A stretch of DNA of 50,449 nt from positions 1 to 50,449 of the forward strand of contig JAKFUG010000041.1 of NCBI GenBank assembly GCA_021732785.1, written 5' to 3'. Positions within the stretch are counted from its first letter, which is position 1. Each line of letters opens with the position of its first letter. Position numbers and translations under genes: made by a program. Source of the DNA: Planctomycetaceae bacterium (GTDB taxonomy: Bacteria; Planctomycetota; Planctomycetia; Planctomycetales; Planctomycetaceae). A model generated the notes under the pieces. It was not told the origin of the DNA. It did not search any database and saw only the letters and a program-made list of their open reading frames with translations. Below are positions 4,970 through 24,263 of this stretch, piece by piece.

Positions 4970-6832
4970 ATGTGCGGCATCGTTGGTTATATCGGTCCCA
5001 AAGCGGCGGCAGACTATCTCCTCGAAGGTCTGTTTCGCCTCGAATACCGCGGCTACGATTCCGCCGGGATCGCGATTCAAACCGATGGCGATATCAGCAT
5101 TCGCAAGAAAACCGGCCGCGTCGGGCAATTGGCCGAACTCTGCAAACAGAAGCCCATCAAAGGCTCCTTCGGCATCGGCCACACCCGCTGGGCCACGCAC
5201 GGCGAACCGAGCGACACGAATTCCCATCCGCATGTCGGCGGCAATGGGGAAGTGGTGCTGGTTCATAACGGCGTCATCGAGAACTACGCTTCGCTGCGCG
5301 ACCATCTTCGCGAACTGGGTTACGTGTTCCGTTCGGCAACCGATACGGAAGTGATTGCCCATCTGCTCGCCCACGAGCTTTCCGAAGCGATCAAGCTGGG
5401 CGACGATCCCACGAGCGCCGAAACGTGCCTCAAAGCCGTCGAAAACACGCTGGTGCAACTCAAGGGCACCTACGGTCTGGCGATTCTGTTCCGCGATGTT
5501 CCCGGAATGCTGATCGCCGCGCGGTTGGGCAGCCCGCTGGTGGTGGGGATCGGCCGCGGGGAACATTTCCTCGCCAGTGATGCCAGCCCGCTGGTGGGTT
5601 TCACAGAAGAAGTCGTTTATCTCAACGATCACGAAATCGCGGTGTTGAGTGCCGAGGGGATGAAGCTCCGCCATCGGGATGGCGGGGTGCAGACGCCGTC
5701 GATTCGCGTGCTGGAACAATCGGCCATCGACACGGATCTCGGCGAATTTGAACATCACATGCTCAAGGAAATCTTTGAGCAGCCGCAGACGATTGAAAAT
5801 GCCATCCGCGGCCGATTGGACGAAGACGAAGCCACGGCGCGGTTCGGCGGATTGAATCTCGATCCGCAGCAATTGCGCCGCGTCGACCGGATTGTGTTGA
5901 CCGCCTGCGGAACCAGTTGGCACGCGGGACTCGTCGGTGAATATCTCATCGAAGAGTTTGCACGGATTCCCGTCGAAGTGGAATACGCCAGCGAACTCCG
6001 TTATCGCAATCCGCCGATGTCCGATCGCACGATGATTTTCGCGATCACGCAATCCGGCGAAACTGCCGACACACTAGCGGCACTGCGGGAATGCAAGCGG
6101 AAGGGCCATCCGTCGCTGGCCATCTGCAATGTCGTCGGTTCTTCGATTGCGCGGGAAGCCGGCAGCGGGATCTATCTGCACGCCGGTCCGGAAATCGGCG
6201 TCGCCTCGACAAAAGCCTTCACCGCTCAAGTGACGGTGCTGACGCTGCTGGCGTTGTTCCTCGGGCGCATGCGGCATCTGTCCTATCCCGCCGGCAAGCG
6301 GATCATCGGCCACTTGAAGGCGATGCCGGACATGATTCGCAAGGCGCTCGAATGTAACGATGCCGTCAAAGAAATCGCGCAGCGGTACTACCAGGCCGAA
6401 AACTTCCTGTATCTCGGGCGGTTGTACAATTTCCCGGTGGCACTCGAAGGAGCGCTGAAGCTGAAGGAAATCAGCTACATTCACGCGGAAGGTTACCCCG
6501 CCGCAGAAATGAAGCACGGGCCCATCGCCTTGGTCGACGAGGATACGCCGAGCGTGTTTGTTGTGCCGCGGTGCAACATCTACCCGAAGGTGATCTCGAA
6601 CATGGAAGAGATCAAAGCCCGTCGGGGTCCGGTGATTGCCGTTGCCTGCGAAGGGGACGACAAAGTGGCAGAACTTGCCGATGACGTGATTTACGTCCCG
6701 GTGGTGGATGAGTACCTGCAACCGCTCGTCACGGCGATCCCGCTGCAACTCCTCGCGTATCACATCGCGCTCTTGCGGGGCTGCAACGTCGACCGTCCGC
6801 GAAATCTCGCCAAGAGCGTGACGGTCGAATAA
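4970..6832 (+). CDS. glmS: Glutamine-fructose-6-phosphate aminotransferase
   Basis: The 620-residue enzyme makes glucosamine-6-phosphate from fructose-6-phosphate and glutamine, the first step to UDP-GlcNAc. It starts MCGIVGYIG, so Cys2 becomes the N-terminal nucleophile of the class II glutaminase domain. This is followed by the GHTRWATHGEPSDTNSHPH segment. Two SIS domains follow (TACGTSWHAGLVGEYLIEE and a second copy near FLYLGRLYNFPVALEGALKL). The C-terminus ends LAKSVTVE, as in the family. The frame is open upstream to 4862, but the catalytic Cys fixes the start at 4970, with GGGGGAG 8 bases upstream. The gene is complete. Confidence 0.98.
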   Translation: MCGIVGYIGPKAAADYLLEGLFRLEYRGYDSAGIAIQTDGDISIRKKTGRVGQLAELCKQKPIKGSFGIGHTRWATHGEPSDTNSHPHVGGNGEVVLVHNGVIENYASLRDHLRELGYVFRSATDTEVIAHLLAHELSEAIKLGDDPTSAETCLKAVENTLVQLKGTYGLAILFRDVPGMLIAARLGSPLVVGIGRGEHFLASDASPLVGFTEEVVYLNDHEIAVLSAEGMKLRHRDGGVQTPSIRVLEQSAIDTDLGEFEHHMLKEIFEQPQTIENAIRGRLDEDEATARFGGLNLDPQQLRRVDRIVLTACGTSWHAGLVGEYLIEEFARIPVEVEYASELRYRNPPMSDRTMIFAITQSGETADTLAALRECKRKGHPSLAICNVVGSSIAREAGSGIYLHAGPEIGVASTKAFTAQVTVLTLLALFLGRMRHLSYPAGKRIIGHLKAMPDMIRKALECNDAVKEIAQRYYQAENFLYLGRLYNFPVALEGALKLKEISYIHAEGYPAAEMKHGPIALVDEDTPSVFVVPRCNIYPKVISNMEEIKARRGPVIAVACEGDDKVAELADDVIYVPVVDEYLQPLVTAIPLQLLAYHIALLRGCNVDRPRNLAKSVTVE

Positions 6833-8104: not shown

Positions 8105-11100
8105 ATGACTTCCTTGATGCCCCACGAAATGCCCATCGCGGTTGTCGGTCTGGGATGCCGACTCCCCGGTGCCGACGATTTGTCCGCCTACTGGAAGCTG
8201 ATCTCCGAAGGCCGCAGTGGCATTGTCGAGTTCCCTCCCGATCGGCTCGACCAATCCCTGTATTACCACCCGGAAAAAGGGACCTTCGGGCGAACCTATT
8301 CCAAGATCGGCGGCGTCGTTCCAGAACGCCCGCTCAACCCGGCGATCTGTGCCCTGCCGCCCGCGCTCGAAAAGAACACCGACTCCGCGCACCTGATCAT
8401 GTGCGAAGTCGCCGCGATGGCCTGCCGCCACGCCGGGTACGATCCGTTCAATCTCGCGACCCGAAACACCGGCGTGTACATCGGCCACTCCGGTGGCAGC
8501 ACGCTGTCCGGCGAAATTGCATTCAACACGTACAGCGAACAGGTCGCCGAGTACCTTCGCGAACATAAGACGTTCGCCAAGCTGCCGGTCGAACAGCAGA
8601 CGCAAATTATTCGCGGGGTCGTGGGCCGCATCCGCGCGGAAAAGGCGCACCGCAATCCCGATGGCGGGCCGGAAATCGGCGCGCACATGGTCTCGGCGGT
8701 CATCGCGCAGGCGTTCGGATTGTCGGGTCCCGCCCTCGCCACCGATGCCGCCTGTGCGTCGTCATTGATTGCCATGGCGATGGGCGTGCATGCACTCCGC
8801 AACGGCCAGATCGATATGGCCATCGTCGGCGGGGCGTCGTGCAGCAAATGGTACGCGCTGGTGATCTTCTCTATCGCCCAATCCATCAGCGGCACCGGCT
8901 CGCGGCCGTTCGATGCCAACGCCGACGGGCTCATCAGCTCGGACGGTTATGCCGCCGTGGTGTTGAAGACGCTGCCGAAAGCACTCGCCGACGGGGACGA
9001 CATCAAGGCCGTGATTCGCGGCATCGGTGTCTCGTCGGATGGTCGCGGCAAGAGCTTGTGGGCACCGCGGAAAGAAGGCCAGGTCCTCGCCGTTCAACGA
9101 GCCTATCCGAAGAACGTCGACCCGGCGAAACTGCAATACCTCGAATGTCACGCCACGTCGACCCAGGTTGGCGATGCGACGGAACTCGCCGCGCTCACCA
9201 TGGCGCTGAAGGATCGTCTCCCTGCGGGGATGAAATTGCCGATCGGCAGCGTGAAGGCGAACATCGGTCACACGCTGGAGTCGGCGGGGATCGCGGGCTT
9301 CGTCAAAGCCGTGCTCTGCATGCAGAACAAGACGATTCCCGGTCAGATCAACCTGCAAACGCCCAATCCCGAAGTCGCGTGGAAGGATATTCCGTTCTTC
9401 GTGCCGCAGAAAGCCACGCCGTGGCCGGAACCGAAGCCGGGCGAAGCGCGCCGGACCGCGGTCAATGCGTTCGGGATCGGCGGACTGAATGTGCATGTCG
9501 TCATGGACGACCGTCCGACGGAATCGTTGAAGACGCAGGTCAACGTCGTGGGGAATCCGACGGGCGCAGTCATCCGCGAGAAGAACAATCCGAACGACCG
9601 CGCGATTGCGATCATCGGCATGGGAGCCGTTTTGCCCGGGGCGCTCACGATCGACGCCTTCTGGGACCTGCTCGTCTCCGGTCGCGATCCGAAAACCACC
9701 GTCCCCGCGACGCGCTGGAACCCGGCGATTTACCACGATCCCAACAGCAAGGGACCGTGGCGGACGCGGAATGCCACCGGCGGATTTGTGACCGACTTCG
9801 TGTACGACTGGAAGAAGCACAAGGTTCCGCCGAAGCAGATCGCGAACGCGAACCCGTTGCAGTTCATGCTGCTCGATGCCGCTGACCAGGCGCTGCGCGA
9901 CTCCGGCTACGACAAGAAAGCGTTCGATCACCAAAAAGCCGCGGTCATTGTCGGGTCGGTGTTCGGGGGTGATTTTGCCTGCGAAATGCAGATGGGGCTG
10001 CGGATTCCCGAATTCCAGCGGTATCTCCGCAACGAGATGCTGTCCCGCGGGATTCCCGCCGGCGACATCGATCAGGTCGTTGCCGATTACGAGCAGTTGC
10101 TCCTCAAGCACATGCCCGCCTTGATGGACGAAACCGGCAGCTTCACGGCAAGCACGCTGGCTTCGCGGATGACGAAGACCTTCGACATGATGGGCGGGGC
10201 GTTCTCCATCGACGCCGGCGATACCTCGTCGATGGCCGCGATCTCCGCCGGCATCGGCATGCTCCTCGATCAATCGGTCGACATGGTGCTCTGTGCCGCT
10301 GGTCAACGCAGCATGGACATCAATGTCTACGAAGGCTTCGTGATGAAAGACGGCCAGGCGGCCGGAACGTCGAAGCCCTCGTTCTCGCAGTCGATGGACG
10401 GTGTCGTCCCCGGTGAAGGCTCGGCGGTCGTGCTGCTGAAGCGGTTGTCCGATGCCCAGCGCGATGGCGACCGCATCCGGGGCGTGATCCGTGGAGTCGG
10501 GGTCGCGCTCGATGTCAACCAGTATCCGCGGGCGTATCGCGAATCGGCCGACCGCGCTTTGGAATTGGGCCGCGCCGTGCCGAACCACATCGGCATGGTG
10601 GAAGTCGCCTCGATCGGTCAACCGGTGATTGATCGGCAGGAAGCGACCGTTCTCGGTGAATTGCTCGCCGATGATGCCCGCAACGCCCCCGCCGTGTTGA
10701 CGTCCTCGATCAGCCAGATTGGCCACACGCTCGGATTGTCCGGCATGGTGTCGATGATCAAGTCCGTGCTCGAACTCGAACACGGTCAGATCCCGCGGAC
10801 TCCGGGAATGGACAATCCTCTCCCGCAAGTGACGTCGCACGCCGACACGCTGAAAGTGGCCCAGGAGCCGCAATCGTTGTTTGCGACGTTGCCCGCCGGG
10901 AAAACGCTCGCCGCGATCACCAACAGCGGTCCGAATGGTGCGGTGTACACGATGTTGCTCGAAGGGGGTCAGAACCTGCCCACCGCGCCGCAACGGGCAC
11001 CGAAAGTCCCGGCCGTCGTCGCTGGTCCGACCGAATGGAAGACGGTTCGCCTCGGTGCGGCGTCACGCGAAGCCCTTCGCGCCGAAGTCGCCAAATGGCA

Positions 11101-14100
11101 AGCCAATCCGGCTCCATTGTTCGAGACCGGTGGCATCGATCACTTCAACGGCCGCGATGCCGTGCGGTTGGCGATTGTCGCCGACAACACGCAGTCGCTG
11201 ACGAAGAAACTGCAACTCGCGTCCGAGCAGTTGGTCCAGAAGAACCCGAACGGATTGCTGGAACAGCAGGGGGTTTACTTCCGGGAATCCTCGGCGACGA
11301 AACCGAAAGTCGCGTTCCTGTTCCCCGGACAGGGATCGCAATACACGGGCATGTTACGCGACCTCGTGAACGAATCGAAGGCGGCTCGTGAGATCGTGAA
11401 TGAACTCGATGCGATTCTCGTCCAGCACAAGGCCCCGCGGTTTGCGGACCTTGCGTGGATGCCGAACGAGCAACTCGGCCAGGACGTGTTTCTCACGCAG
11501 TTGTCGATGCTGATCGCCGACACGCTTGTCGCCCGGCTGTTGATGAGCGAAGGCTTACGGCCGGATGTCATCAGCGCCCACAGCTATGGTGAGTTCCCCG
11601 CATTGGTCGCCGCCGGAGCGATGACCTTCGGCGATGCGATTGAGATCACGCGGGACCGGACGAATGCGGTGGAATCGCGGGAAAGCACCCGCGGCAGCCT
11701 GATGTCGACCACAGCCCCGCTGGATGTCGTCGAACGCCTGCTGACGCACATGCCCGGTGCAGCGTACCTCGCCAGCCACAACGCTCCGGATCAAACCGTC
11801 GTCGGTGGCACGTCGGATGCCATCCACGGCGTGAAGCGGTTGCTGGAATCCGAAGGCTTTGCGACACGGTTGCTGGCTGTCCCCCGACCGTATCACACGC
11901 CGTTGCTGAACGACGCGAAACCCGCGTTTGCCGCGGCTCTCAGCCGGTCGGCGATTCAAGCCCCGCATGTGAAATTCCTCAGCAGTGTCTCGCTGGATTA
12001 CGTAACGTGTGCGGAAGGGGTGCGGAAGAATCTCGTCGAACAACTCACCACGCCGGTGCGGTATGTGCAGTTGATTCAACGTCTCGCCGCGGAGGGGGTC
12101 AGCCTGTTCCTCGAAGTCGGTCCGCACCAGGTGTTGACACGGCTGAATCAACGCATTTTGAAGGATCGCCCGGTGTCGTTGATCTCGACCGATCTGCCGA
12201 AGCACACCGGCCGCGAAGCCTTGGAACGGTTGCACGGTCTGCTCGAGACCGCCGGGTTGTGGCCGATCGCACCGACGGCACCGTCGACGACTTCGGTCGC
12301 CCAACCGGGATTGGTGATGTTCTTCGATGCCACCGCCGGCCGTCGGCAACAACGGGGCGGCAGCGCTCCGGTCCGTCGGGTGATCGCCACGGTCCCGGCT
12401 GTTCGCGAAGAAGTCGAAGCGGTCGGTTCCTCGTTCGGCATGTCCCGAGCGGCGGCCACTCAAGCCACGACGGTCGCGGTGCTGGAGCAACCCAAAGTCG
12501 TTGTGCAAGAAGTCGTGACCACGATCGACCGGGCCGCGGTGCAACAGTTCATGATCAACTTCATCGTTGATCAGACGGGTTACCCCGCGGACATGGTCGA
12601 GATGGAAGCCGACCTCGAAGCGGACCTTGGGATCGACTCGATCAAGAAGGCACAATTGATCGGTGAACTGGCCGAAAACTTCGAGATGAAGCATCTCGCC
12701 GATTCGCTGCAAGACCTGTCGCTCGATGACTTCCGCACGCTGTCGAGTTTGTTGGACTTCGTGACGAAAGCGCCAGCGGGAAATGCGACGATCGTCGAGG
12801 CTGAGGTGTCTGCGAAGCGCGAAGCGGAATCGGTCGCCGTGGTCGAGCAAACGGAAGCGGTTGTGAACGAACTCGTTACCACGATTGACCGCGCCGCCGT
12901 TCAACAATTCATGATCAACTTCATCGTCGACCAGACGGGTTACCCCGCGGACATGGTCGAGATGGAAGCCGATCTCGAAGCCGACCTCGGCATCGATTCG
13001 ATCAAGAAGGCCCAGTTGATCGGTGAGCTGGCCGAAAACTTCGAGATGAAGCATCTCGCCGATTCGCTGCAAGATTTGTCGCTTGATGACTTCCGCACGC
13101 TGTCGAGTTTGTTGGACTTCGTGACGAAAGCGCCCGCGGGAAATGCGACGATCGTCGAGGCTGAGGTGTCTGCGAAGCGCGAAGCGGAAGCCGTCATCGT
13201 GGTGGAGCAAACGGAAGCGGTTATTGAAATCGTGACGACGATTGACCGCGGTGCGGTGCAGCAGTTCATGATCAACTTCATCGTCGATCAGACGGGTTAC
13301 CCCGCGGACATGGTTGAGATGGAAGCCGACCTCGAAGCGGACCTTGGCATTGATTCGATCAAGAAGGCACAGCTCATCGGGGAACTCGCCGAGAACTTCG
13401 AGATGAAGCATCTCGCCGATTCGCTGCAAGACCTGTCGCTCGATGACTTCCGCACGCTGTCGAGTTTGTTGGACTTCGTGACGAAAGCACCGGCGGGAAA
13501 TGCGACGATCATCGACGCTGAGGTGTCTGCGAATCGCGAAGCGGAATCGGTCGCCGTGGTCGAGCAAACGGAAGCGGTTATTGAAATCGTGACGACGATT
13601 GACCGCGCCGCCGTTCAACAGTTCATGATCAACTTCATCGTCGACCAGACGGGTTACCCCGCGGACATGGTCGAGATGGAAGCCGACCTCGAAGCCGACC
13701 TTGGCATTGATTCGATCAAGAAGGCGCAGCTCATCGGTGAACTGGCCGAGAACTTCGAGATGAAGCATCTCGCCGATTCGCTGCAAGATTTGTCGCTTGA
13801 TGACTTCCGTACGCTGTCGAGTTTGTTGGACTTCGTGACGAAAGCACCGGCGGGAAATGCGACGATCGTCGAGGCTGAGGTGTCTGCGAAGCGCGAAGCG
13901 GAATCGGTCATCGTGGTCGAGCAACCGCAGCCGGTGGTTGAACCCGTTCGGATTGAAGCGGTTCCGCAGACCATCGCGGCGGATCACACCACCGTCACGA
14001 AGCTGCCGGACGCGTTCAGCGTCGTCCCCATCGCGGGGACACCGTACGAAATGGGCCAGCAGCACGGTCGGCATCAGTCCGCGGAAATCAAAGCGATCAT

Positions 14101-17100
14101 GAGCCGGTATGCGGCGATGCTCGGACCCCGGTTGCAGAACATTCCAGAACTCGACGAAGCCCTCGCCAAGCCGACGATGTACTTCGGCGAACAGGAACTC
14201 GAAGAACTCCACGGCATCGCCGACGGAGCCATGCTGCCGGTCCCCGCGGTCATTGCCCACAATCTGGGGATGTACCCGGATTATGTTCCCGGTTGCACGC
14301 AGTTCGCGTACACCCGCCAACGGAATCCACAGCACGGGCTGGTGCATGCGGTGAATGAAGATTCGCCGTTGTCCCTGACGCTGCCCGATTGCCTCGCCCG
14401 CATCGTGCAGGTGCGTCGTCCGGTGGGTGGCATCCCGCATGTGACGTTCAGTGTCGCCGGTCAAACGGGCGGACTGAATGGCATCAACGCGGCCGGCATC
14501 GCGGTCAGCAGCACCTTGCTCCTCGATCGTCCGCGGCGGCCGTCGACAGCGGTGGGCAAAGTCCATCCAGTGGTGGTGAAGCGGTTGCTCGAACATTCCG
14601 AAACGATTGAAGACGCCCTCGCCATTCTCCGCAGTCTCGACCGAGCCGGGGCGTGGAGCCTGTGCATCAGCCATCATCCGACCGACCGGTTGTGCTACGT
14701 CGAATACGACGGCGGCACGCTCCAGGTGCAGGATGGTCCGAAGTCCGTGCTGACGACCAATCACTGTCTGTTGCAGGCCCCGATTGCGGACATCCCCGAG
14801 CACTCGCGGCATCGTCTCAACCGGTTGAATCAACTGGTCGGCGAAGGTGTCGGTCCGGTCACGGTGGAAATGGCTCAACAGGCCTTGCGGGATCGCTTCG
14901 ACCTCGGTCGGGGACGGCTCACGCCCCATGCGACGATGAACACGATCCGCCGGGTCGACAATCAGATCAGCATCGTGATGATGCCGGAACGGGGCGAGTT
15001 GTTCGTCACCCCTGGACCACGCTCGGGCAAGCTGGTGGATGAATACTTCCGGCTCGATCTGAAGGAACTGCTCAGCCACGATGAACCGGTAGATGAAACC
15101 GCGGCTCCAGTCCGATTGACATCGTCTCCCGCGCCAGCCACAGCGAAGCCGACCCGACCTGTGCAACTGCACTCGCTCGCCGGGTTGCCGGAAGAATCCC
15201 AACGGGTGGTGCAACGCCACGTGTTGCGGATGGAAGAAGCCCCGCTGCCCGAAGGCACGACGACGAAGCCGACCTGGAACGGCGCGGCGGCGATCCTCGG
15301 CAGCAACAAGTTCGCCGAAGCGTTGAAGACGCGATTGGAAGCCGAAGGTCTGAAAGTCCATGCGTTGCCGAACACCGGTGATGTGGATGCCTCGGTGGCT
15401 GCGATGAACGCCGCTTGGGCGCAAGGCCCGGTGATGCACCTGTTCGTCGCCACGGCTCGTGATGATGCCTCGGCGATTGCGAGTGTCGACGGTTGGGAAG
15501 AACGCCGCAAGGTCGGTGCGATGGTGCCGTTCTTTGTCTGCCAGCGGTGGACGGGATTGGTACAGGAAGCGAAAGCTTTGAAGTCGGCGACGCTGGTGGG
15601 CGTCACGGCTCTCGGGGGCGACTTCGGCTTCTGCGGTCGGGTCCACGGCAGCGAAGGGGGCGGCATCACGGGTCTCTTCAAAGGGATCCGTCGCGAGATG
15701 CCGGACCTGCTCGTGAAAGTGATTGATGCTCCGTTCGAGGAAGCTCCGGCGACGTTGATTGACGCCGTCTTCAAAGAACTCGCTGCCAAGCAAGGTCCGC
15801 TGGAAGTCGGTTGGGTGCGCGGTCAACGCTCCATCGTGAAAGCCGTCCCGCAACCGGCTTCGACGCAACGCCAGGGGAGCAAGACGCCGCACGGCAACTG
15901 GATCGTCACTGGTGGTGCCCGTGGTGTGACGGCGGTGGTGGCCCGCGAACTCGGTCGCCGCTTCGGCCTGACGATGCACCTCCTCGGTTCGTCCACGCAG
16001 CCGACGATTGATCCAAGCTGGCGGAACCTTACCGAAGAGGGGATGAAGACCCTCAAGCGGTCCGTGATGGATCAAGCCCGGGCTGCGGGTAAGAATCCGG
16101 CGAATACGTGGAAAGACACCGAACGGGCGATCGAAATCGACCGCACGCTCCAGGCCTTCCGCGCCGACGGCATCACCGTGCATTACCATGCCTGCGATGT
16201 CGCCGACCGGACGAAACTCGGAGCGACGCTCGATGCCATCCGCAATCTGTCAGGTCCGATCCACGGCATCATCCACGGTGCCGGTCTGGAAGCGGCGTGC
16301 AAGTTCGAGAAGAAAAAGCGTGAACTCGTCGAAGCCACCATCAAGGTGAAGATCGACGCCGGGTTGGCAATGCTCGAACTGACGCAGCTCGATCCGTTGG
16401 AATGGTTCGTCGGGTTCGGCTCGACCAGCGGCCGGTTCGGCGGCATGGGTCAGGCCGACTACTCGATGGCGCAGGACATGCTCTGCAAGATGTGCGACTG
16501 GATGCGGGTCCGCCGTCCGGAAGTCTCGGCCGTCGGCATGCACTGGCCGCCGTGGGCGGATGTCGGCATGGCTGCTCGTCCGGAAAGCAAGATCGCGTTG
16601 CAGTCAAGCAATCTCGCCTTCATGCCGCCGCTCGAAGGGGCTGCCCACGTCATCGACGAAATGCTGACCGATGCGCTCGAAGGGGAAGTGCTGTATCTCG
16701 ACAAGCCGGACATGATCGACACCGACGGCACGATGCCCGATGCGTCGACCAAGGCTGAGTACCTGCGTCGTAACCCGCTCGTCAAAGCGTTGCCGATCAT
16801 TGAAACGATTCACGGTTTGACGACGACTTCGGTTATCGGCAAGGCGGTCTTTGACCCTGCGGTCGAACCGTTCCTGCTGGAACACCGCTACCAAGGTGTA
16901 CCGATTCTCCCCGCGGTCGTGGGACTGGAATCGATGGCGGAAACGGCGACATTGCTGGCGGCTGACAACCGTTCGGTGGTGGGCGTCCGCAACATGACGG
17001 TCCATCAAGGCTTCCGCTTCCATCTTCCCAAGTCACAACGGGGACGAGTGATCGCGAAGCACGACAATGGAGCGATCGCCTGCCGTCTGGAAGCTGATTT

Positions 17101-18850
17101 CCTCGATCGTGTCGGCCGGTTGGTGGAAGCGAACCGGTTGCAGATGGATGCCACGCTCGAACTGTCGGCGACCTATCCGCAACTCGCTGCGGTGGACATG
17201 GGACCGCAACCAACCACATGGACGAAGCATCAATATGTCGTCGACTGGCGAACGATGAAGTTCCCGGAAGAAGCCCGTGTTTATCACGGCTACCCGTTCC
17301 AGGCTCTCACCGATTACGCCCTTGTCGATGGTGGGTTGTGGGCGCACATCGTTGTGCCGAAGCCGGAAGTCATCGCCGGAAAACGTCCCGCAGCCGGATG
17401 GTTGTTGCCGTCGTCTGCGATTGACGCCGGTCTGCTCGCGTCCGATTTGTATGTGTGGAACACCTACAAGATTTCCGACCTGCCATACTCGTTCGACCGC
17501 ATCCAGTTTGCCCGGGCGTTCGTGCCGGGGGAAACGTTGACGATGCGGATGTGGGTGAAAGAACGCCAGGGCCGCAAGATTCGGGCGGACTTCGTGTATG
17601 TCGATGCCAGCGGCAAAGTGGTAATGCAAGTCGATGGTTACGAGATGGTCGAAACGCGGGCGGTGACAACGCCGGCTGCGGAATCGGCTCCGGCTCCAGT
17701 GGCAGCCGCTCCGGTCGCAAAGCCGGTTGTGGCGACGGCACCCGTTATCGCTCCGGCGGCTGTCGGACCGGCTCCCGCACCAGCCCCGAGCCCGCTGAAA
17801 TCGACCGCGGCCCGGATCATCCCGCAAGCCTCCGCACCGGCTCCCGCGCCGTTGCCGGTTGGTTATGTCAACGGCTCGGGTCACAAGCCCGCTGCGATTT
17901 CGGCTCCGGTTTCCACGACGACACCCCTCGTGAAAGCCAGCGATGTCGCCGAGTTACCGCTGGTCGAATCGGCGAAGTGGTCATCCGCAACGGAACTGGT
18001 TGCCGAACTGACGTTCGATCCCACGAATGATCTGTTCCTGCAACAGCACACGTTCGGTGGCAAGCCGTTGTTGCCCGCGGTGATTGGATTGGAGTCGATG
18101 ATCCAGTCGGCGTGGCTTACGCAACCGACACGAGTGTTCGACTCGGTCCGCGACTTCCAGATCATCGCGCCGCTGAAGTTCCGGGATGCAACCCCCGCAA
18201 CCGTTAAAGTCGTGGCGCAGGTCGAAGGCGATGCGGTGAAGTGCCGGTTGATGAGCATCTCCAGCAAAGAAGTGGTCTACCAATCGGTGACGGTGATGTT
18301 CGCTGATCAAGCGGAACCGGTGCTGGCTCCGTCGCTGGAATCGCCGCCGTTCCCGTACTCGCCGATGAACTACGCCGAAGGGAAGCAGGCCCAACTGCTG
18401 CACGGCCCGCTGTTCCGCTGCCTCAAAGGTCTCTGCCTGCAACGCGATGGCGGCTGGGGCAAAGTGACGGCGGCCGCGGCGGACAATCTCGCCGGCAATC
18501 GGAAGGGTTCCCGCTGGTTCCTGCCGACGGCGACGCTCGACTCCTGTCTGGTGGCCACGGGGGTGGATTTGTTCATTCTGATGACGAAACGGACCGAGAT
18601 TCCGCACCGCATGGAAGAGATTCGAGTTGTCCGGTTGCCCAAGGCCGGGGAGGCGTGTGTCGTCCGGTTGAACTACCGCGGTCATAACGACCGACATACG
18701 ACGTACGATTTGATTCTCTACGGTGCCAATAAAGAGGTGCTGCTGACGGTCAAGAACTACCAGGGCATTCGGACATCGAAGGACGCGGATTCGTCGCTGT
18801 GGAGCGGAGAAGCCGCCGAGGGCCGGTTGATCGACGCCCAGCAGAACTAG
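8105..18850 (+). CDS. Pfa/Hgl-like type I polyketide/lipid megasynthase with internal C45 Ntn-hydrolase
   Basis: The 3581-residue multidomain enzyme is most like iterative secondary-lipid synthases. Domains in order: KS1 about 8-460, with the full triad Cys217 (DAACASSL), His349 (ECHATST) and His389 (ANIGHTLES). KS2 runs about 499-930 and has Asp706 where Cys is expected (DAGDTSS) and no first His, so it is a chain-length-factor-like partner. AT is about 1067-1375 (FPGQGSQ; Ser1160 in AHSYGEF; His1264). Four ACPs have phosphopantetheine serines Ser1512, 1632, 1751 and 1870 (LGIDSIKKAQL). A C45 penicillin-acyltransferase-like domain covers about 1968-2325 (YEMGQQHG; Gly2063-Cys2064-Thr2065; TTNHC). 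A pseudo-KR is at 2380-2590 and KR at 2597-2860 (TGGARGVTA; Tyr2786). DH1 has His2927/Asp3107, an Ala/Pro linker follows at about 3190-3250, and DH2 has His3315/Asp3479. No ER or TE is seen. AGAAGG precedes the ATG. Confidence 0.93.
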   Translation: MTSLMPHEMPIAVVGLGCRLPGADDLSAYWKLISEGRSGIVEFPPDRLDQSLYYHPEKGTFGRTYSKIGGVVPERPLNPAICALPPALEKNTDSAHLIMCEVAAMACRHAGYDPFNLATRNTGVYIGHSGGSTLSGEIAFNTYSEQVAEYLREHKTFAKLPVEQQTQIIRGVVGRIRAEKAHRNPDGGPEIGAHMVSAVIAQAFGLSGPALATDAACASSLIAMAMGVHALRNGQIDMAIVGGASCSKWYALVIFSIAQSISGTGSRPFDANADGLISSDGYAAVVLKTLPKALADGDDIKAVIRGIGVSSDGRGKSLWAPRKEGQVLAVQRAYPKNVDPAKLQYLECHATSTQVGDATELAALTMALKDRLPAGMKLPIGSVKANIGHTLESAGIAGFVKAVLCMQNKTIPGQINLQTPNPEVAWKDIPFFVPQKATPWPEPKPGEARRTAVNAFGIGGLNVHVVMDDRPTESLKTQVNVVGNPTGAVIREKNNPNDRAIAIIGMGAVLPGALTIDAFWDLLVSGRDPKTTVPATRWNPAIYHDPNSKGPWRTRNATGGFVTDFVYDWKKHKVPPKQIANANPLQFMLLDAADQALRDSGYDKKAFDHQKAAVIVGSVFGGDFACEMQMGLRIPEFQRYLRNEMLSRGIPAGDIDQVVADYEQLLLKHMPALMDETGSFTASTLASRMTKTFDMMGGAFSIDAGDTSSMAAISAGIGMLLDQSVDMVLCAAGQRSMDINVYEGFVMKDGQAAGTSKPSFSQSMDGVVPGEGSAVVLLKRLSDAQRDGDRIRGVIRGVGVALDVNQYPRAYRESADRALELGRAVPNHIGMVEVASIGQPVIDRQEATVLGELLADDARNAPAVLTSSISQIGHTLGLSGMVSMIKSVLELEHGQIPRTPGMDNPLPQVTSHADTLKVAQEPQSLFATLPAGKTLAAITNSGPNGAVYTMLLEGGQNLPTAPQRAPKVPAVVAGPTEWKTVRLGAASREALRAEVAKWQANPAPLFETGGIDHFNGRDAVRLAIVADNTQSLTKKLQLASEQLVQKNPNGLLEQQGVYFRESSATKPKVAFLFPGQGSQYTGMLRDLVNESKAAREIVNELDAILVQHKAPRFADLAWMPNEQLGQDVFLTQLSMLIADTLVARLLMSEGLRPDVISAHSYGEFPALVAAGAMTFGDAIEITRDRTNAVESRESTRGSLMSTTAPLDVVERLLTHMPGAAYLASHNAPDQTVVGGTSDAIHGVKRLLESEGFATRLLAVPRPYHTPLLNDAKPAFAAALSRSAIQAPHVKFLSSVSLDYVTCAEGVRKNLVEQLTTPVRYVQLIQRLAAEGVSLFLEVGPHQVLTRLNQRILKDRPVSLISTDLPKHTGREALERLHGLLETAGLWPIAPTAPSTTSVAQPGLVMFFDATAGRRQQRGGSAPVRRVIATVPAVREEVEAVGSSFGMSRAAATQATTVAVLEQPKVVVQEVVTTIDRAAVQQFMINFIVDQTGYPADMVEMEADLEADLGIDSIKKAQLIGELAENFEMKHLADSLQDLSLDDFRTLSSLLDFVTKAPAGNATIVEAEVSAKREAESVAVVEQTEAVVNELVTTIDRAAVQQFMINFIVDQTGYPADMVEMEADLEADLGIDSIKKAQLIGELAENFEMKHLADSLQDLSLDDFRTLSSLLDFVTKAPAGNATIVEAEVSAKREAEAVIVVEQTEAVIEIVTTIDRGAVQQFMINFIVDQTGYPADMVEMEADLEADLGIDSIKKAQLIGELAENFEMKHLADSLQDLSLDDFRTLSSLLDFVTKAPAGNATIIDAEVSANREAESVAVVEQTEAVIEIVTTIDRAAVQQFMINFIVDQTGYPADMVEMEADLEADLGIDSIKKAQLIGELAENFEMKHLADSLQDLSLDDFRTLSSLLDFVTKAPAGNATIVEAEVSAKREAESVIVVEQPQPVVEPVRIEAVPQTIAADHTTVTKLPDAFSVVPIAGTPYEMGQQHGRHQSAEIKAIMSRYAAMLGPRLQNIPELDEALAKPTMYFGEQELEELHGIADGAMLPVPAVIAHNLGMYPDYVPGCTQFAYTRQRNPQHGLVHAVNEDSPLSLTLPDCLARIVQVRRPVGGIPHVTFSVAGQTGGLNGINAAGIAVSSTLLLDRPRRPSTAVGKVHPVVVKRLLEHSETIEDALAILRSLDRAGAWSLCISHHPTDRLCYVEYDGGTLQVQDGPKSVLTTNHCLLQAPIADIPEHSRHRLNRLNQLVGEGVGPVTVEMAQQALRDRFDLGRGRLTPHATMNTIRRVDNQISIVMMPERGELFVTPGPRSGKLVDEYFRLDLKELLSHDEPVDETAAPVRLTSSPAPATAKPTRPVQLHSLAGLPEESQRVVQRHVLRMEEAPLPEGTTTKPTWNGAAAILGSNKFAEALKTRLEAEGLKVHALPNTGDVDASVAAMNAAWAQGPVMHLFVATARDDASAIASVDGWEERRKVGAMVPFFVCQRWTGLVQEAKALKSATLVGVTALGGDFGFCGRVHGSEGGGITGLFKGIRREMPDLLVKVIDAPFEEAPATLIDAVFKELAAKQGPLEVGWVRGQRSIVKAVPQPASTQRQGSKTPHGNWIVTGGARGVTAVVARELGRRFGLTMHLLGSSTQPTIDPSWRNLTEEGMKTLKRSVMDQARAAGKNPANTWKDTERAIEIDRTLQAFRADGITVHYHACDVADRTKLGATLDAIRNLSGPIHGIIHGAGLEAACKFEKKKRELVEATIKVKIDAGLAMLELTQLDPLEWFVGFGSTSGRFGGMGQADYSMAQDMLCKMCDWMRVRRPEVSAVGMHWPPWADVGMAARPESKIALQSSNLAFMPPLEGAAHVIDEMLTDALEGEVLYLDKPDMIDTDGTMPDASTKAEYLRRNPLVKALPIIETIHGLTTTSVIGKAVFDPAVEPFLLEHRYQGVPILPAVVGLESMAETATLLAADNRSVVGVRNMTVHQGFRFHLPKSQRGRVIAKHDNGAIACRLEADFLDRVGRLVEANRLQMDATLELSATYPQLAAVDMGPQPTTWTKHQYVVDWRTMKFPEEARVYHGYPFQALTDYALVDGGLWAHIVVPKPEVIAGKRPAAGWLLPSSAIDAGLLASDLYVWNTYKISDLPYSFDRIQFARAFVPGETLTMRMWVKERQGRKIRADFVYVDASGKVVMQVDGYEMVETRAVTTPAAESAPAPVAAAPVAKPVVATAPVIAPAAVGPAPAPAPSPLKSTAARIIPQASAPAPAPLPVGYVNGSGHKPAAISAPVSTTTPLVKASDVAELPLVESAKWSSATELVAELTFDPTNDLFLQQHTFGGKPLLPAVIGLESMIQSAWLTQPTRVFDSVRDFQIIAPLKFRDATPATVKVVAQVEGDAVKCRLMSISSKEVVYQSVTVMFADQAEPVLAPSLESPPFPYSPMNYAEGKQAQLLHGPLFRCLKGLCLQRDGGWGKVTAAAADNLAGNRKGSRWFLPTATLDSCLVATGVDLFILMTKRTEIPHRMEEIRVVRLPKAGEACVVRLNYRGHNDRHTTYDLILYGANKEVLLTVKNYQGIRTSKDADSSLWSGEAAEGRLIDAQQN
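12521..13930 (+). repeat. Tandem array of four ACP-coding units
   Basis: Four direct repeats with periods of 360, 357 and 357 bases lie inside the megasynthase; starts are near 12521, 12881, 13238 and 13595. Each encodes an ACP domain plus a linker (APAGNATIVEAEVSAKREAE). Long runs are identical between copies, including at synonymous positions, and the few differences are mixed between copies. This suggests recent duplication or gene conversion. The repeats stay in frame, so they are functional coding sequence and not a minisatellite. Confidence 0.93.
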
Positions 18851-18953: not shown

Positions 18954-18993
18954 GATCGTGATGGCGTACCGGTTGCCGAGAAGGATTGCGGAC

Positions 18994-19758
18994 ATGATTG
19001 ACCTGACAGGAAAAGTGGCGCTCGTGACGGGCGGATCGCGCGGCTTGGGCCGGGCCATCGCGCTGAAACTCGCCGAAGCCGGTGCCGACATCGTGTTGAA
19101 TTTCGTCGCTTCTCGGACAGCGGCCGACCAGACGGCGGAACATATCGCCCGGTTGGGTCGCCGCGTGGCGGAAGTCCAGGCCGATGTCTCTGAACCCGAT
19201 GACATCGCCGCGATGCTCGACTGGATCAGCGAAACGTTCGGCCGGTTGGACATCCTCGTCAGCAACGCTGCCGTCGGGAATTTCGGGTCGCTCATCGAAA
19301 CGCGGCCCGAGGAATTCGACCTGACGATGAACACCAACGTCCGCGGACTGCTCATGCTGGTGCAGAACGCGCTGCCGTTGCTCGCCGGTTCAACAAGCAA
19401 CAGCAAGGTGATTGCGTTGTCGAGCACCGGCGCGAATCTCGCGTTGCCGCATTGCGGCCTGGTGGGTGCGAGCAAAGCGGCCCTCGAATCCGCCGTGCGG
19501 CATCTCGCGCTGGAACTGGGTGACCGCGGCATCAACTTTAACGCGGTCCAAGCCGGCTGGGTCGACACCGACACGACGCGCACCGCGCCCGAGTTTGAAA
19601 GCCTGCTCTCTGCCCAGTCGTTCCGCCAGATGACCGGCGACCGCGTGCTAACCGCGGACGACATCGCCAACGCGGTGCTGTTCCTCGCGAGTCCGCTCAG
19701 CGATTTGATCCAGGGACAAACGCTCGTTGTCGATGGCGGCGCCGCAGTGCGGGTGTAA
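18994..19758 (+). CDS. SDR-family oxidoreductase, FabL-like, atypical active site
   Basis: The 254-residue Rossmann-fold protein has the NAD(P)-binding motif TGGSRGLG (residues 12-19), SNAAVG after the fourth strand and a C-terminal DGGAA. The framework resembles FabG/FabL ACP reductases (GASKAALESAVRHLALEL). In FabL and FabI the catalytic Tyr sits seven residues before the Lys. Here Cys154 (after His153) occupies that place relative to Lys161, and the classical Y-x-x-x-K position holds Val157. The usual proton donor is therefore absent, and the protein may use another residue or be non-catalytic. The start at 18994 has GAGAAGGA 8 bases upstream; a GTG at 18958 is in frame but lies in the hairpin. 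Its position suggests a tailoring or enoyl/keto reduction role for the megasynthase. Confidence 0.9.
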   Translation: MIDLTGKVALVTGGSRGLGRAIALKLAEAGADIVLNFVASRTAADQTAEHIARLGRRVAEVQADVSEPDDIAAMLDWISETFGRLDILVSNAAVGNFGSLIETRPEEFDLTMNTNVRGLLMLVQNALPLLAGSTSNSKVIALSSTGANLALPHCGLVGASKAALESAVRHLALELGDRGINFNAVQAGWVDTDTTRTAPEFESLLSAQSFRQMTGDRVLTADDIANAVLFLASPLSDLIQGQTLVVDGGAAVRV

Positions 19759-19982: not shown

Positions 19983-21629
19983 ATGGGTCTCATCTCCGCA
20001 ATCGCGCAGGCGTGGCTGGTGCAGCGCACCGCGCGCGATTTGGCGCGATATGGCCGCGCCATCAAACGGCCACGGGAAACACAGCAGCAGTTTCTGCTTG
20101 ATCTGATCCACCGCGAGCAGACCACCGGTTACGGCCGCGATCACCATTTCAACGAGATCCGAAGCGTCGCCGATTTTCGCCAGCGCGTGCCGATCTCGAC
20201 GTATACCGATCTCGAACCGTACATCGAGCGTGTCAAACAGGGCGATACCGGAGCGTTGTTTCACCAGCAGCGCGTGGTGATGTTCGCCCTCACCAGCGGG
20301 ACGACGCAATCCCGGAAATTCATCCCCGTCACCGAACGTGTGCTCGATCAATACCGGCGGGTCTGGTCCGCGTGGGGATTGCTGGCGTATGCCGCACATC
20401 GCAAGCTGTTTCGGCATTCCCGATTGACCATTGTCAGCGACTGGAACGAGTTCCCCACCTCGGCGGGCATTCCGTGCGGCAGCATCAGCGGCATGACGGC
20501 GCATCTGCAGAACTGGGTGGTTCGCCGGGGCTATGTGATGCCCGCCGTGTCGGGGAAACTGAAAGATGTCCGCGCGAAGTACTATCTCGCGTGGCGGCTG
20601 GGCCTGCTGCGCACCATCGGCACATGGTTATCGCCCAATCCGAGCACCTTGCTCAACCTCGCGCGGTTCGGCGAAAAATACGCGGTGTCGCTCTTGCGCG
20701 ACATCTATAACGGCACGCTGTCAGAGGAATTCGAGTGGACCGACGAAGTCCGTGCGTACATGCAACCGTTGCTCAAACCAAATCTCGAACGGGGTCGGCA
20801 ACTCGATCACCTTTATGAATCAACGGGGCGATTTCTACCCAAAGATATCTGGCCCGAACTCGGCCTCATTGGTTGCTGGACCGGTGGCAGCATGGGGACG
20901 TATCTCCGCAGCTTCCCCGAATACTTCGGCAAAGCGGCGGTGCGCGATCTGGGTTTGATTGCCAGCGAAGGCCGCATGACGTTTCCCGTCGCGGATGGCA
21001 CGCCATCCGGGGTGCTGGAAATCGTCAGCAATTACTTCGAATTCGTACCGGTGAACGAGATCGATTCCCCGCAACCGACGGTGCTCGAAGCCCATGAATT
21101 GCAGGAAGGGGGCGAGTATTTCATCCTGCTGACGAATGCCAGCGGGCTGTATCGCTACAACATTCACGACGTCGTTCGCTGCACCGGCTTTCAGGAAAAA
21201 ACTCCGCTGCTGGAGTTCCTCAACAAAGGGAGCGGCATCTGCAGCGTGACGGGAGAAAAGCTCACCGACCATCAGGTTTCGTTTGCCATGACGAAGACCC
21301 TCGCCCAGCACCGGTTGGCATTGCAATCATTCGCGCTGGCCCCGGTGTGGGACACGCCGGAGATGCCGCGTTATGCGTTGTTCGTCGAGGAAGCCGAACT
21401 GCGGGGCAAGGTCGATGCCGATCAATTCGTGAAGACCCTCGATGAGCACTTGCATGCGCTGAACATCGAATACGCCTCGAAGCGCGAGACGCAACGGCTG
21501 GGTGCTGTCCGGATCGCGTGGGTTCCTGAAGGCTTCTGGGACCGCTGGGACCAGCAGCGCCGCGAAAAAAGCGGCGGGACTGCGGAACAGTACAAGCGTC
21601 CGGTTTTGATGCAGCAACCGCCGGTTTAG
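19983..21629 (+). CDS. GH3-family acyl-acid amido synthetase
   Basis: The 548-residue protein belongs to the GH3 (auxin-responsive promoter) family of the adenylate-forming superfamily. Plant GH3 enzymes adenylate a carboxylic acid and join it to an amino acid. Visible motifs: TSGTTQSRKFIP from Thr104 (phosphate-binding loop), ASEGRM from Ala327, a YFEFVP segment and YRYNIHDVVR from Tyr390, with Asp396 as the probable ribose-binding acid. The length fits GH3. The start has GGAACGG just upstream. It is the third gene of the biosynthetic locus, so it may conjugate the megasynthase product, or a building block, to an amino acid or amine; that is inference. The substrate cannot be read from sequence. 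Confidence 0.92.
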   Translation: MGLISAIAQAWLVQRTARDLARYGRAIKRPRETQQQFLLDLIHREQTTGYGRDHHFNEIRSVADFRQRVPISTYTDLEPYIERVKQGDTGALFHQQRVVMFALTSGTTQSRKFIPVTERVLDQYRRVWSAWGLLAYAAHRKLFRHSRLTIVSDWNEFPTSAGIPCGSISGMTAHLQNWVVRRGYVMPAVSGKLKDVRAKYYLAWRLGLLRTIGTWLSPNPSTLLNLARFGEKYAVSLLRDIYNGTLSEEFEWTDEVRAYMQPLLKPNLERGRQLDHLYESTGRFLPKDIWPELGLIGCWTGGSMGTYLRSFPEYFGKAAVRDLGLIASEGRMTFPVADGTPSGVLEIVSNYFEFVPVNEIDSPQPTVLEAHELQEGGEYFILLTNASGLYRYNIHDVVRCTGFQEKTPLLEFLNKGSGICSVTGEKLTDHQVSFAMTKTLAQHRLALQSFALAPVWDTPEMPRYALFVEEAELRGKVDADQFVKTLDEHLHALNIEYASKRETQRLGAVRIAWVPEGFWDRWDQQRREKSGGTAEQYKRPVLMQQPPV

Positions 21630-21842: not shown

Positions 21843-23024
21843 ATGGCAACGTCGCTTGGGATGTCTACTAACGAACAGGCGACAATCAACAGGTCTGTGA
21901 GAAACGGTACCGTTCCGAAATACGAAATCCGCAAGCCGCGCGGAAGTTGGTGGCGACAGGCGTCGTCCCGATTTGTGAATTGGTTCGCGCACCGCTGGTA
22001 CCACCGCATCGTCCGTTGGACGGCTCCCCTCACCGCGTTCTGGCTCTCGCAGACGCCGATGATTTTCGCAACGGTCGCCACGCTGGTGCGGTTCCGTATC
22101 TTCGATCGACTCCGCACGGGGCCATTATCGTCCGCGGAACTCGCACTGCTGGTCGACGCCGATGAACAGGCCTTGTTACGCATTCTGCGTCCGGCGGCGG
22201 CACTCGCTATTCTGGATCGCCTCCCCGATGGCCGATACGCCCTGTCTGCAGTCGGCGAACAGTTCTGCAGCGACTCAGCACAACCGGTCGCGGCATGGAC
22301 AGAACTGATGGATCGAATGGTCCTCGAAACCCTGCCACAACTTCCGGAAGCGATCCGCGCCGGCGATTCGCTCGTCCATCACGTCCATGGCAAGACGTGC
22401 TGGGAACGGATGGCGGAAGTTCCCGGGACGAACGAACTGCACGATATCGCCTGTGGTCGCTGGACCGAATTGGTCGTCGACAGCGTGGCCCAAGCGTACG
22501 ATTTCTCGCAGGCAGCACTGCTGATTGATGTCGGTGGTGGCCGCGGATCGCAACTTTCGGCCATCCTCAAGGCCAACCCTCAACTCCACGGGACCGTGTA
22601 CGACCGGGATGAGACCAAAGCCGCCGCAGGAGCCATGTTCCTGAAGCAAGGCGTCAGCGGCCGGGCGTGCCACGTCACGGGGAACTTTTTTGAAGCGGTT
22701 CCTAAGGGAGCGGACCTTTATACAATCAAGCATGTCCTGCACGACTGGGACGATGTCAGCGTGGTGCGCATCCTGTCGAACATTCGGGCCGCCATGTCGC
22801 ATTCGGCCCGATTGCTCATCATTGAAGGTTCGGTCGACCACAACCTCGGTCCGATGGAATCGATTCGCGCCGTGTGGGATTTAAGCCAGTTTGCAACGAC
22901 CTGGGGGAAATCCCGCACGCTCGATGAGTTTGCGAAAATTGCCCAGCAAGCCGGGTTACGGCTGAAAACGGTCTTTCCAACGCAGACAATTGACACTCTA
23001 ATTCTGGAGTGCGTCCCGGTGTGA
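21843..23024 (+). CDS. SAM-dependent O-methyltransferase
   Basis: The 393-residue protein is of the COMT-like small-molecule O-methyltransferase family. The N-terminal part (about 80-180) is the winged-helix dimerisation domain (ATVATLVRFRIFDRL; LLRILRPAAALAIL). The SAM fold follows, with DVGGGRGSQ from Asp229 and the catalytic base His300 in KHVLHDWDD. The first about 70 residues are a basic extension with an amphipathic stretch (WFAHRWYHRIVRWTAPLTAF) that might touch membrane. An alternative start is the ATG at 21861. It lies between GH3 and the Rieske oxygenase and probably methylates a hydroxyl on the pathway product, perhaps one made by the Rieske enzyme; that coupling is inference. Confidence 0.92.
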   Translation: MATSLGMSTNEQATINRSVRNGTVPKYEIRKPRGSWWRQASSRFVNWFAHRWYHRIVRWTAPLTAFWLSQTPMIFATVATLVRFRIFDRLRTGPLSSAELALLVDADEQALLRILRPAAALAILDRLPDGRYALSAVGEQFCSDSAQPVAAWTELMDRMVLETLPQLPEAIRAGDSLVHHVHGKTCWERMAEVPGTNELHDIACGRWTELVVDSVAQAYDFSQAALLIDVGGGRGSQLSAILKANPQLHGTVYDRDETKAAAGAMFLKQGVSGRACHVTGNFFEAVPKGADLYTIKHVLHDWDDVSVVRILSNIRAAMSHSARLLIIEGSVDHNLGPMESIRAVWDLSQFATTWGKSRTLDEFAKIAQQAGLRLKTVFPTQTIDTLILECVPV

Positions 23025-23084: not shown

Positions 23085-24263
23085 GTGTTCCGCAATTCAA
23101 ACCATGTTCCGCAGATTCTGCGACCGGATCACTACTTCTCCCCGGAGCAGTCCGAAGTCGAACGCGATCGGCTCTTTCTCCCCGCCTGGCACTGCGTGGG
23201 CGTCAAAGCGCTCCTCCCCAACCAGGGCGATTTTCTCACGCTGGAACTGCTCGAACGGCCACTGATCCTCTGGAATACGGCTCAGGGAATCCGGACGTAT
23301 CTCAACGTCTGCACACATCGATTCAGCACTCTCACCGACAAACCATGCGGTCACTTCGCCAAAAACTTGAAGTGCCAATACCATGGCTGGGAATACGACG
23401 GGGAAGGGAACACCTGCAAGATTCCCGATGCGCAATCCTTTCGCCCGTTGAAAAAGGGCGAACTCGGCCTGCGGGAATACCGCACAGAAACCGTCGGGCA
23501 ATTGATCTTCGTCACGCTGAATGAAAACGCTCCCGATCTGCGGACGTTTCTCGGCCCGGAACTCGTCGCGTTAGCCGAACAGCGGTTTTCGCCCGAACAC
23601 CGGCTCACACTCGTTCGCGACACGCATATCGACTGCAACTGGAAGATCGTGATCGAGAATATTCTCGAGTCGTACCACATCGCCATGGTCCACCCGAAAT
23701 CGTTCGCCGATTACCCCGTCCCCGAGCATTGCTTTCACGAGTTCCATGCGGACTACGACCACTTCATCCACGACTTCACCGACGAGCCGCGGTACGCCAA
23801 GCCGGAACGGATCATTGCGAAACTGATTGGACGCGCCCCGGATTACCGCTGGCACCACATCCTGCGCTATCCCAACATCGTCATGGGCGGAGCAGGTCCC
23901 TGGCATTACATCCAGATGGTCTGGCCGACGAGTCCGACGACCTGCCGCTCTCGCTGGATTACGATGCACTATTCCGGATCGAAAGCCAGTTGGTGGGGGT
24001 TCCTGCTGCACCGGGCCTTGCTTCGCTTCGGTCGCCGTACGGCGCTGCAGGTTCAGAACGAAGATGCCCGGATCTATCCGAAAGTGCATCGCGGAACGGC
24101 TGTCGTTGACCGCCCACACAGCGGTGGTCTGATTTCCATGCGGGAAGAGCGGATTATCGTCTTCCAGGAATACCTGCTCCGCGAGACCGGCTCGAAACCT
24201 TCAACGGCAGAACCTGCCGAAAAGCCGACGTTTTCGCCCACGATTCGATTCGCGCAGCCGTGA
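23085..24263 (+). CDS. Rieske non-haem iron oxygenase, alpha-type subunit
   Basis: The 392-residue protein has a Rieske [2Fe-2S] site Cys76/His78 (NVCTHRFS) and Cys97/His100 (KCQYHGWEY). The mononuclear iron site is His198 and His203 in ESYHIAMVH with Asp327 as the carboxylate. The preceding ENILES supplies the acidic residue that bridges subunits in this family. It would hydroxylate or demethylate a substrate with O2 and electrons from a separate reductase, which is not in the window. It begins with GTG at 23085; no in-frame ATG lies before the conserved region, and AGGGA is about 11 bases upstream. Last gene of the biosynthetic locus, 60 bases after the methyltransferase. Confidence 0.93.
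   Translation: MFRNSNHVPQILRPDHYFSPEQSEVERDRLFLPAWHCVGVKALLPNQGDFLTLELLERPLILWNTAQGIRTYLNVCTHRFSTLTDKPCGHFAKNLKCQYHGWEYDGEGNTCKIPDAQSFRPLKKGELGLREYRTETVGQLIFVTLNENAPDLRTFLGPELVALAEQRFSPEHRLTLVRDTHIDCNWKIVIENILESYHIAMVHPKSFADYPVPEHCFHEFHADYDHFIHDFTDEPRYAKPERIIAKLIGRAPDYRWHHILRYPNIVMGGAGPWHYIQMVWPTSPTTCRSRWITMHYSGSKASWWGFLLHRALLRFGRRTALQVQNEDARIYPKVHRGTAVVDRPHSGGLISMREERIIVFQEYLLRETGSKPSTAEPAEKPTFSPTIRFAQP

Follow-up and report, generated by a model that had tools for sequence, protein, structure and literature searches.

A C45 Ntn-hydrolase domain embedded in a planctomycete type I lipid synthase as a candidate for chain release

The Synthase and Its C45 Domain

The stretch of DNA analysed here, called the window in the following, comprises 50,449 nucleotides (positions 1 to 50,449 of the forward strand of contig JAKFUG010000041.1) from a Planctomycetaceae bacterium (assembly GCA_021732785.1). 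Its largest gene, with a frame that is open throughout, encodes an iterative type I lipid or polyketide synthase, and residues 1968-2325 of the product were confirmed as a C45 N-terminal nucleophile (Ntn) hydrolase domain by family profile, alignment and fold; a role of this domain in releasing the finished chain is proposed below. Pfam and NCBIfam models recovered the order ketosynthase (KS), chain-length factor (CLF), acyltransferase (AT), four acyl carrier proteins (ACP), C45, ketoreductase (KR) and two dehydratases (DH), with C45 between the fourth ACP and KR as an earlier note, made from the DNA letters alone, had it (Table 1). Linkers rich in Pro and Ala flank the C45 domain on both sides. 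The order of KS, AT, tandem ACP and KR and the similarity to the PfaA model are those of a PfaA-type synthase. Among long models, PfaA (TIGR02813) fits best, but its 900.7 bits fall short of the cutoff (1010.1), and by this score the protein is a relative of PfaA and not PfaA itself.

Table 1. Features of the window and free-standing C45 proteins of other loci
Feature	Position	Strand	Remarks
PfaA-like type I iterative lipid/polyketide synthase	8105..18850	+	3581 amino acids, carries C45 insert
Ketosynthase domain	8132..9544	+	motifs ACASS, HATST, GHTLE
Second KS-fold domain, chain-length-factor type	9587..10969	+	active-site Cys motif not seen in sequence
Acyltransferase domain	11282..12214	+
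Four ACP domains in tandem	12512..13864	+	DLGIDSIKK in each
C45 domain, predicted alpha chain	14006..14293	+	Gly2063 at end
C45 domain, predicted beta chain	14294..15079	+	putative nucleophile Cys2064 at start; holds Asp2086, Asn2219
Ketoreductase domain	15302..16654	+	including N-terminal part
Dehydratase domain 1	16787..17704	+	HRYQGVPILP
Dehydratase domain 2	17957..18784	+	HTFGGKPLLP
Short-chain dehydrogenase, FabL-like	18958..19758	+	FabL model 259.5 bits, cutoff 328
GH3-type acyl-amide ligase	19983..21629	+	subfamily tied to Cys-bearing C45; Pfam GH3 1.7e-70
O-methyltransferase	21843..23024	+	possible tailoring enzyme
Rieske oxygenase	23085..24263	+	possible tailoring enzyme
glmS	4862-6832		upstream of synthase
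Free-standing ACP-like + C45 protein	L036:8330-9820
Free-standing ACP-like + C45 protein	L076:2042-3610
Free-standing ACP-like + C45 protein	L077:3043-4578
Free-standing ACP-like + C45 protein	L089:8923-10488

Short motifs of the domain lie at residues 1981 (YEMGQQHG), 2083 (VNEDS) and 2218 (TNHC), and family searches bear out the assignment to C45 with scores above both curated cutoffs. The NCBIfam model C45_proenzyme (NF040521) reaches 137.1 bits with the whole protein and 142.3 bits with the region alone (cutoff 85), and Pfam AAT 40.1 bits (E 4.3e-10, cutoff 23.2). A multiple alignment of 25 rows (isopenicillin-N acyltransferase, 11 free C45 proteins and 13 synthase-type domains) brings Gly2063 and Cys2064, the putative processing site already named in the earlier note (Cys codon at 14294), into register with Gly102 and Cys103 of the penicillin enzyme, and Asp2086 and Asn2219 with its Asp121 and Asn246. 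Cys stands at the nucleophile column in all 11 free C45 proteins. The residue register was taken from this alignment in preference to pairwise HMMER comparison with PDB sequences (2x1c, E 2e-11), which puts Cys103 a few columns off.

A structural model was predicted with AlphaFold2 from four sequences (mean predicted local distance difference test score (pLDDT) 61.2, predicted template modelling score 0.73). Foldseek ranked seven chains of isopenicillin-N acyltransferase first against this model of pLDDT 61.2, in both precursor and mature forms, with 2x1c as the best match (E 7.3e-16) and template modelling scores of 0.64-0.69, followed by acid ceramidase, NAAA and penicillin V acylase/bile salt hydrolase. 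By these matches, the predicted model has the alpha-beta-beta-alpha fold of Ntn hydrolases. A chance match of motifs was rejected, given that family cutoffs are exceeded and the fold matches.

In isopenicillin-N acyltransferase, the newly exposed N-terminal Cys is the nucleophile. The enzyme (penDE, MEROPS C45; PDB 2x1c, 2x1d and 2x1e) has the fold, the Gly-Cys site and the Asp121 and Asn246 equivalents in common with the window domain, but it is a free-standing fungal protein working on acyl-CoA, whereas the window domain is embedded between ACPs and KR. In the parts of the literature consulted, it is reported to cut itself between Gly102 and Cys103, giving the active alpha/beta heterodimer, and to require Ser227. 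Since the processed penicillin enzyme is described there as such a heterodimer, the two halves of the synthase need not separate after a cut; their computed masses of 221.6 and 164.6 kDa agree with an earlier estimate of about 220 and 165 kDa. Ser227 is replaced by Asp in the window domain. Besides the penicillin enzyme, Ser occupies this column in 3 of 24 rows, all of them free C45 proteins (L011, L013 and L020), and in neither the other eight free proteins nor any of the 13 synthase-type rows. Judged by the alignment, Ser227 is not a defining residue of C45, and the window domain is not to be filed as a penicillin acyltransferase.

An antisense frame of 1544 amino acids crosses the synthase gene (window 11555-16189, minus strand) and appears to be a side effect of codon usage and not a gene.

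Recurrence of the Fusion

A profile (A1) built from eight synthase-type C45 domains was run on 170 genomes of the window's family and on 397 and 392 genomes sampled from its class and phylum, the genome-by-genome survey being confined to the window's phylum. In the class and phylum searches, at most five candidates were scored per genome, and their counts are lower bounds. C45 within an open frame of more than 1000 amino acids was found in at least 30 of the 397 class genomes (E up to 1e-20), distributed over six families (f1, f5, f8, f106, f109 and f118), and in at least 13 of the 392 phylum genomes (E up to 1e-18), every one of them from the window's class. Elsewhere in the phylum, the longest C45-containing frame among the candidates scored measures 898 amino acids. 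Within the window's family, synthase-type C45 (at least 298 bits, or a frame of more than 1000 amino acids) occurs in at least 24 of 170 genomes. C45 inside a synthase is a recurrent architecture in this class. An artefact of assembly or reading frame was rejected, as the fusion recurs in many assemblies, including the single-contig genomes G020, G108, G110 and G690. No described synthase with such an insert was known to the earlier note, yet the fusion is found repeatedly within the class, often with the Cys lost. No relative was confirmed among viral contigs, a scan of genome contigs returned free C45 proteins only (26-29% identity), and no Rfam family reached threshold within the window.

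Judged by titles and the beginnings of abstracts, none of the open-licence papers in PubMed Central (PMC) that the searches listed describes a polyketide or lipid synthase with a C45 domain. The PfaA-type synthases of polyunsaturated fatty acids and secondary lipids classified by Shulse and Allen (PMC3098273) have KS, CLF, AT, tandem ACPs, KR and DH in common with the window synthase, which alone has C45 between ACPs and KR when set against the descriptions consulted there. Planctomycete synthases are assigned to types I and J in that work; the passages seen mention no C45-like domain for these types, and the word 'hydrolase' is absent from the main text.

Loss of the Nucleophile in Related Synthases

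Fifty-one synthase loci were classed among those fetched, which cover part of the ketosynthase hits. Two loci were left out where the contig ends too early (L093, with the Cys past the end, and L115, which stops at the ACP), as were second synthases or fragments of other type (L085/L119, L090/L120, L114 and L116) and two loci with the front part only (L117 and L118). The Cys is kept in 14 of the 51 (the window, L035, L038, L078, L081, L083, L084, L086, L087, L088, L091, L092, L096 and L127), which span families f1, f5 and f8 and several genera and keep the other catalytic residues as well. Ten loci carry Gly in its place (L037, L039, L040, L041, L079, L080, L082, L085, L090 and the truncated L094), and the nine full-length ones retain the Asn-Glu-Asp and Asn-His motifs.

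A degenerate or truncated C45 was found in another 14 loci (L042, L043, L044, L097-L100 and L128-L134). Six of these (L044, L099, L100, L129, L130 and L133) have Ser in the Cys column, with no preceding Gly and a beta chain that is for the most part unrecognisable. Ser can act as nucleophile in other Ntn hydrolases; in these six degenerate sequences it is not read as a working one. In the remaining 13 loci (L101-L113), no C45 was detected at the search threshold. For nine of them (L103, L105-L109 and L111-L113), a combined profile of the segment that separates ACP from KR matches the C45 alpha chain (hhalign probability 97.3, E 5.1e-11, a single comparison); individual hidden Markov model scores for this remnant reach E 0.002 in L103 and L106 and are weaker in the other seven. 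Just about 85 residues lie between ACP and KR in L101, L102 and L104.

One Cys-bearing relative (L127:1996-12672) has the order KS-CLF-KS-CLF-AT-C45-KR-DH, with no ACP detected in the chain. A rule that the Cys goes with ACPs directly in cis, which seemed valid among the first full-length cases, was rejected on account of this locus, where no ACP was detected before C45.

Descent and Selection

In the C45 tree, synthase-type domains cluster in a single clade distinct from the free C45 proteins, and the Gly type is one subclade (support 0.93); the tip L029, labelled as free, duplicates the domain of L037. The KR tree fully supports the separation of the Gly group and likewise keeps the degenerate and remnant groups separate, with weak support at several inner nodes. 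One fusion event is inferred, after which the Cys was lost no fewer than three times.

Four free-standing proteins of about 500-540 amino acids carry a Cys-bearing synthase-type C45 and lie inside the main Cys clade (Table 1). An ACP-like domain, detected by search in three of them and by alignment in L089, precedes C45 in all four; its phosphopantetheine Ser is gone, with DG or DP in place of DS. Three of the four genomes with free-standing copies (G020, G114 and G087) also have a Gly-type synthase (L037, L080, L082 and L090). Outside the synthases, a single-domain ketosynthase gene is followed, a few bases on, by a C45 gene with Asp-Cys at the site in a Chloroflexi metagenome-assembled genome (L033:8708-10902), and ketosynthase and C45 genes are about 1 kb apart in a metagenome-assembled genome of the Pirellulaceae (L034), so that a dissociated pairing of the two may exist.

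Synthase-type C45 domains, including the one Gly-type pair measured, were shown to be under purifying selection by their ratios of non-synonymous to synonymous substitution rates (dN/dS). Between the window and its nearest relative L035, which lacks KS, CLF and AT so that these were not compared, the C45 alpha chain is 74% identical (dN/dS 0.105) and the beta chain 73% (0.163), next to 84% for the last ACP (57 codons), 66% for KR, 60% for DH1 and 54% for DH2. Apart from L084/L087, dS is high in all pairs. In a series of one pair per class, dN/dS of C45 was 0.035 for the Cys pair L084/L087, 0.066 for the Gly pair L037/L080 (CLF 0.066, AT 0.062) and 0.091 for the degenerate pair L044/L099, looser there than KS (0.020) and AT (0.037).

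The domain might also be a scaffold or docking domain, its fold mainly positioning the ACPs and KR while catalysis is secondary or absent even where the Cys is present. Full-length domains without Cys in nine of the ten Gly-type loci, selection on C45 of the Gly pair like that on AT and CLF, and the persistence of the alpha-chain remnant in a further clade are consistent with such a role. However, 14 loci from three families and several genera keep the Cys together with the rest of the catalytic residues, four copies outside a synthase keep it too, and it goes with a GH3 subfamily described below; a mainly structural role is regarded as unlikely.

A Proposed Role in Chain Release

Chain release in type I synthases is known to involve thioesterase, reductase, Dieckmann, condensation or KS-like domains. 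The recurrence of the fusion and the natural losses of its active site suggest that lipid chains are released by C45. It is proposed, with a probability of roughly one half, that C45 is a built-in release domain which activates itself, most likely releases the chain by hydrolysis and leaves the acid to be conjugated by GH3. Once folded, the protein would be cleaved at Gly2063-Cys2064 into alpha and beta chains that remain associated as one domain, and the freed Cys2064 would take over the mature acyl chain from the neighbouring ACPs, forming an acyl-enzyme. Discharge by water would then yield a free long-chain acid, which the neighbouring GH3 ligase would activate with ATP and couple to an amine or amino acid. 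In relatives lacking the nucleophile, a linked thioester reductase would probably release the chain and the C45 fold, whole or in part, would be left as a scaffold.

This link to GH3 is based on its distribution. GH3 profile matches (E up to 1e-100) are widespread, occurring in 133 of 170 family genomes, and a distinct subfamily (at least 760 bits with the next score at 657, when partial hits in G113 and G115 are taken into account) was found in 11 of the 170. It is present in 10 of the 17 genomes whose synthase-type C45 bears the Cys as compared with 1 of 153 others (G023; Fisher 5e-11), where the 17 consist of 13 fused and four free-standing cases and include G113 though its Cys is not visible; this statistic, like that for the reductase below, is descriptive and ignores shared descent. 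In the vicinity of the synthase, the subfamily was found at 7 of 14 Cys-bearing loci and at none of the 37 others. In G020 and G115, the GH3 gene stands behind genes for an argF-like carbamoyltransferase, an argD-like class III aminotransferase and, by order and length, a putative argB, which hints at ornithine as the amine. OlsH of Singulisphaera acidiphila, likewise a GH3-like planctomycete enzyme, has free fatty acid, ornithine and ATP as substrates and yields N-acyl ornithine according to the parts of the report consulted (PMC12493201). The window GH3 scores far below the cutoff of the OlsH model NF052613 (139.9 versus 620 bits) and is not filed as OlsH.

Because the Cys-bearing C45 is accompanied by a ligase that requires a free acid, hydrolysis is considered likelier than direct formation of an amide or ester. 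In the latter case, an amine or alcohol would attack the C45 acyl-enzyme, so that the synthase itself makes the amide or ester, in the manner of isopenicillin acyltransferase, and GH3 has another role. The nearest solved structures belong to an acyltransferase, which fits direct transfer, as does the lack of an annotated thioesterase in the ten neighbouring proteins scanned. Among the same ten, however, no dedicated amine-donor gene is annotated except glmS, upstream of the synthase, and together with the company of GH3 this leaves direct transfer improbable.

Chain release is also touched by a linked NAD_binding_4 protein that resembles the thioester reductase domains of reductive release (TIGR01746; 125-133 bits in three members, cutoff 213). 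Of 29 Cys-less loci whose flanks each measure 2 kb or more, 28 have a linked gene of this kind, as do 3 of 8 assessable Cys-bearing loci (p 0.0007), the latter figure being 2 of 7 by the 2-kb rule plus L127, which is five bases short of it and has its reductase 5.8 kb upstream of the synthase by genome-wide search. Within the 50 kb of the window, no thioester reductase was found by the profile and threshold used; the window's genome has one on another contig, and in most Cys-bearing genomes with a match the reductase lies away from the synthase. Genome-wide searches gave no match in G012 and G174. A clean switch between C45 and reductase was rejected because of the reductase of L127 and the copies elsewhere in most Cys-bearing genomes searched, and the pattern is a tendency only. 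A thioester reductase is also mentioned for the zeamine lipid synthase (PMC13291983), a text in whose available part neither 'planctomycet' nor 'penicillin' occurs.

Both distributions bear on release and tell against a third possibility, namely that C45 trims an N-acyl group from the ACP-bound chain. A precedent is AzsT of azaserine synthesis, a C45 enzyme which, as far as the source was seen (PMC10445470), acts like the proposed window domain on a carrier-protein-bound substrate. AzsT is a separate protein, however, and takes off a succinyl group while the chain is left on its carrier, whereas the window domain is embedded. With no enzyme adding such an N-acyl group annotated in the ten neighbours scanned, trimming appears very improbable.

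Several findings weigh against the proposed release by hydrolysis and conjugation. The Cys is absent in 37 of the 51 classed loci, so that most of the relatives examined can do without catalysis by C45. The GH3 subfamily is missing in 7 of the 17 genomes with a Cys-bearing C45, and in two genomes in which this C45 is free-standing, GH3 lies in a putative arginine-synthesis operon and not beside a synthase. A linked thioester reductase also accompanies three of the eight Cys-bearing loci, and reductase matches exist in 13 of the 15 genomes searched that have a fused copy with Cys (counting G113). In addition, the Asp in place of Ser227 departs from the penicillin enzyme, and the structural model is weak with its mean pLDDT of 61.2.

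Other Genes at the Loci

The short-chain dehydrogenase downstream of the window synthase is a possible trans enoyl reductase and has homologues in 32 fetched loci, and the Rieske oxygenase belongs to a cluster with members in 20 loci, the window among them. PSCyt2/PSD1 and DUF1559 proteins, which are associated with planctomycetes, are also encoded in the neighbourhood, and a gene at 29558-31054 (plus strand) shows weak similarity to the anti-phage model DS41_1 (95.5 bits, cutoff 370) with a NACHT/AAA-like part.

At other loci, two Cys-bearing synthases have a sulfotransferase-family gene and no GH3 (L091:1809-2933 and L092:5485-6609); the same cluster has a member near L112, a locus without C45. 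A gene for a PapA/wax-synthase-like acyltransferase lies near L096, L103, L107, L127, L128 and others, which also have a linked reductase, and this suggests ester lipids made from the reduced chain. Two thioester-reductase homologues contain in-frame TAG codons and are possibly pseudogenes (G131:C138 and G157:C42).

Significance

Taken further, C45 could represent a new class of release domain in type I megasynthases, which cuts its own synthase, stays attached and frees an acid from which a dedicated GH3 makes an N-acyl amino acid, perhaps N-acyl-ornithine, and which was switched off more than once in sister lineages where reductive release took over. This wider view is put forward tentatively, with less confidence than the release model above. 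If true, an Ntn hydrolase within the chain would add release by a different mechanism, in a megasynthase that is nicked by one of its own domains. Close relatives, which naturally range from Cys through Gly, truncated domain and alpha remnant to none, make both release and nicking testable, and this little-characterised group of synthases would be linked to a possible class of products, the N-acyl amino acids.

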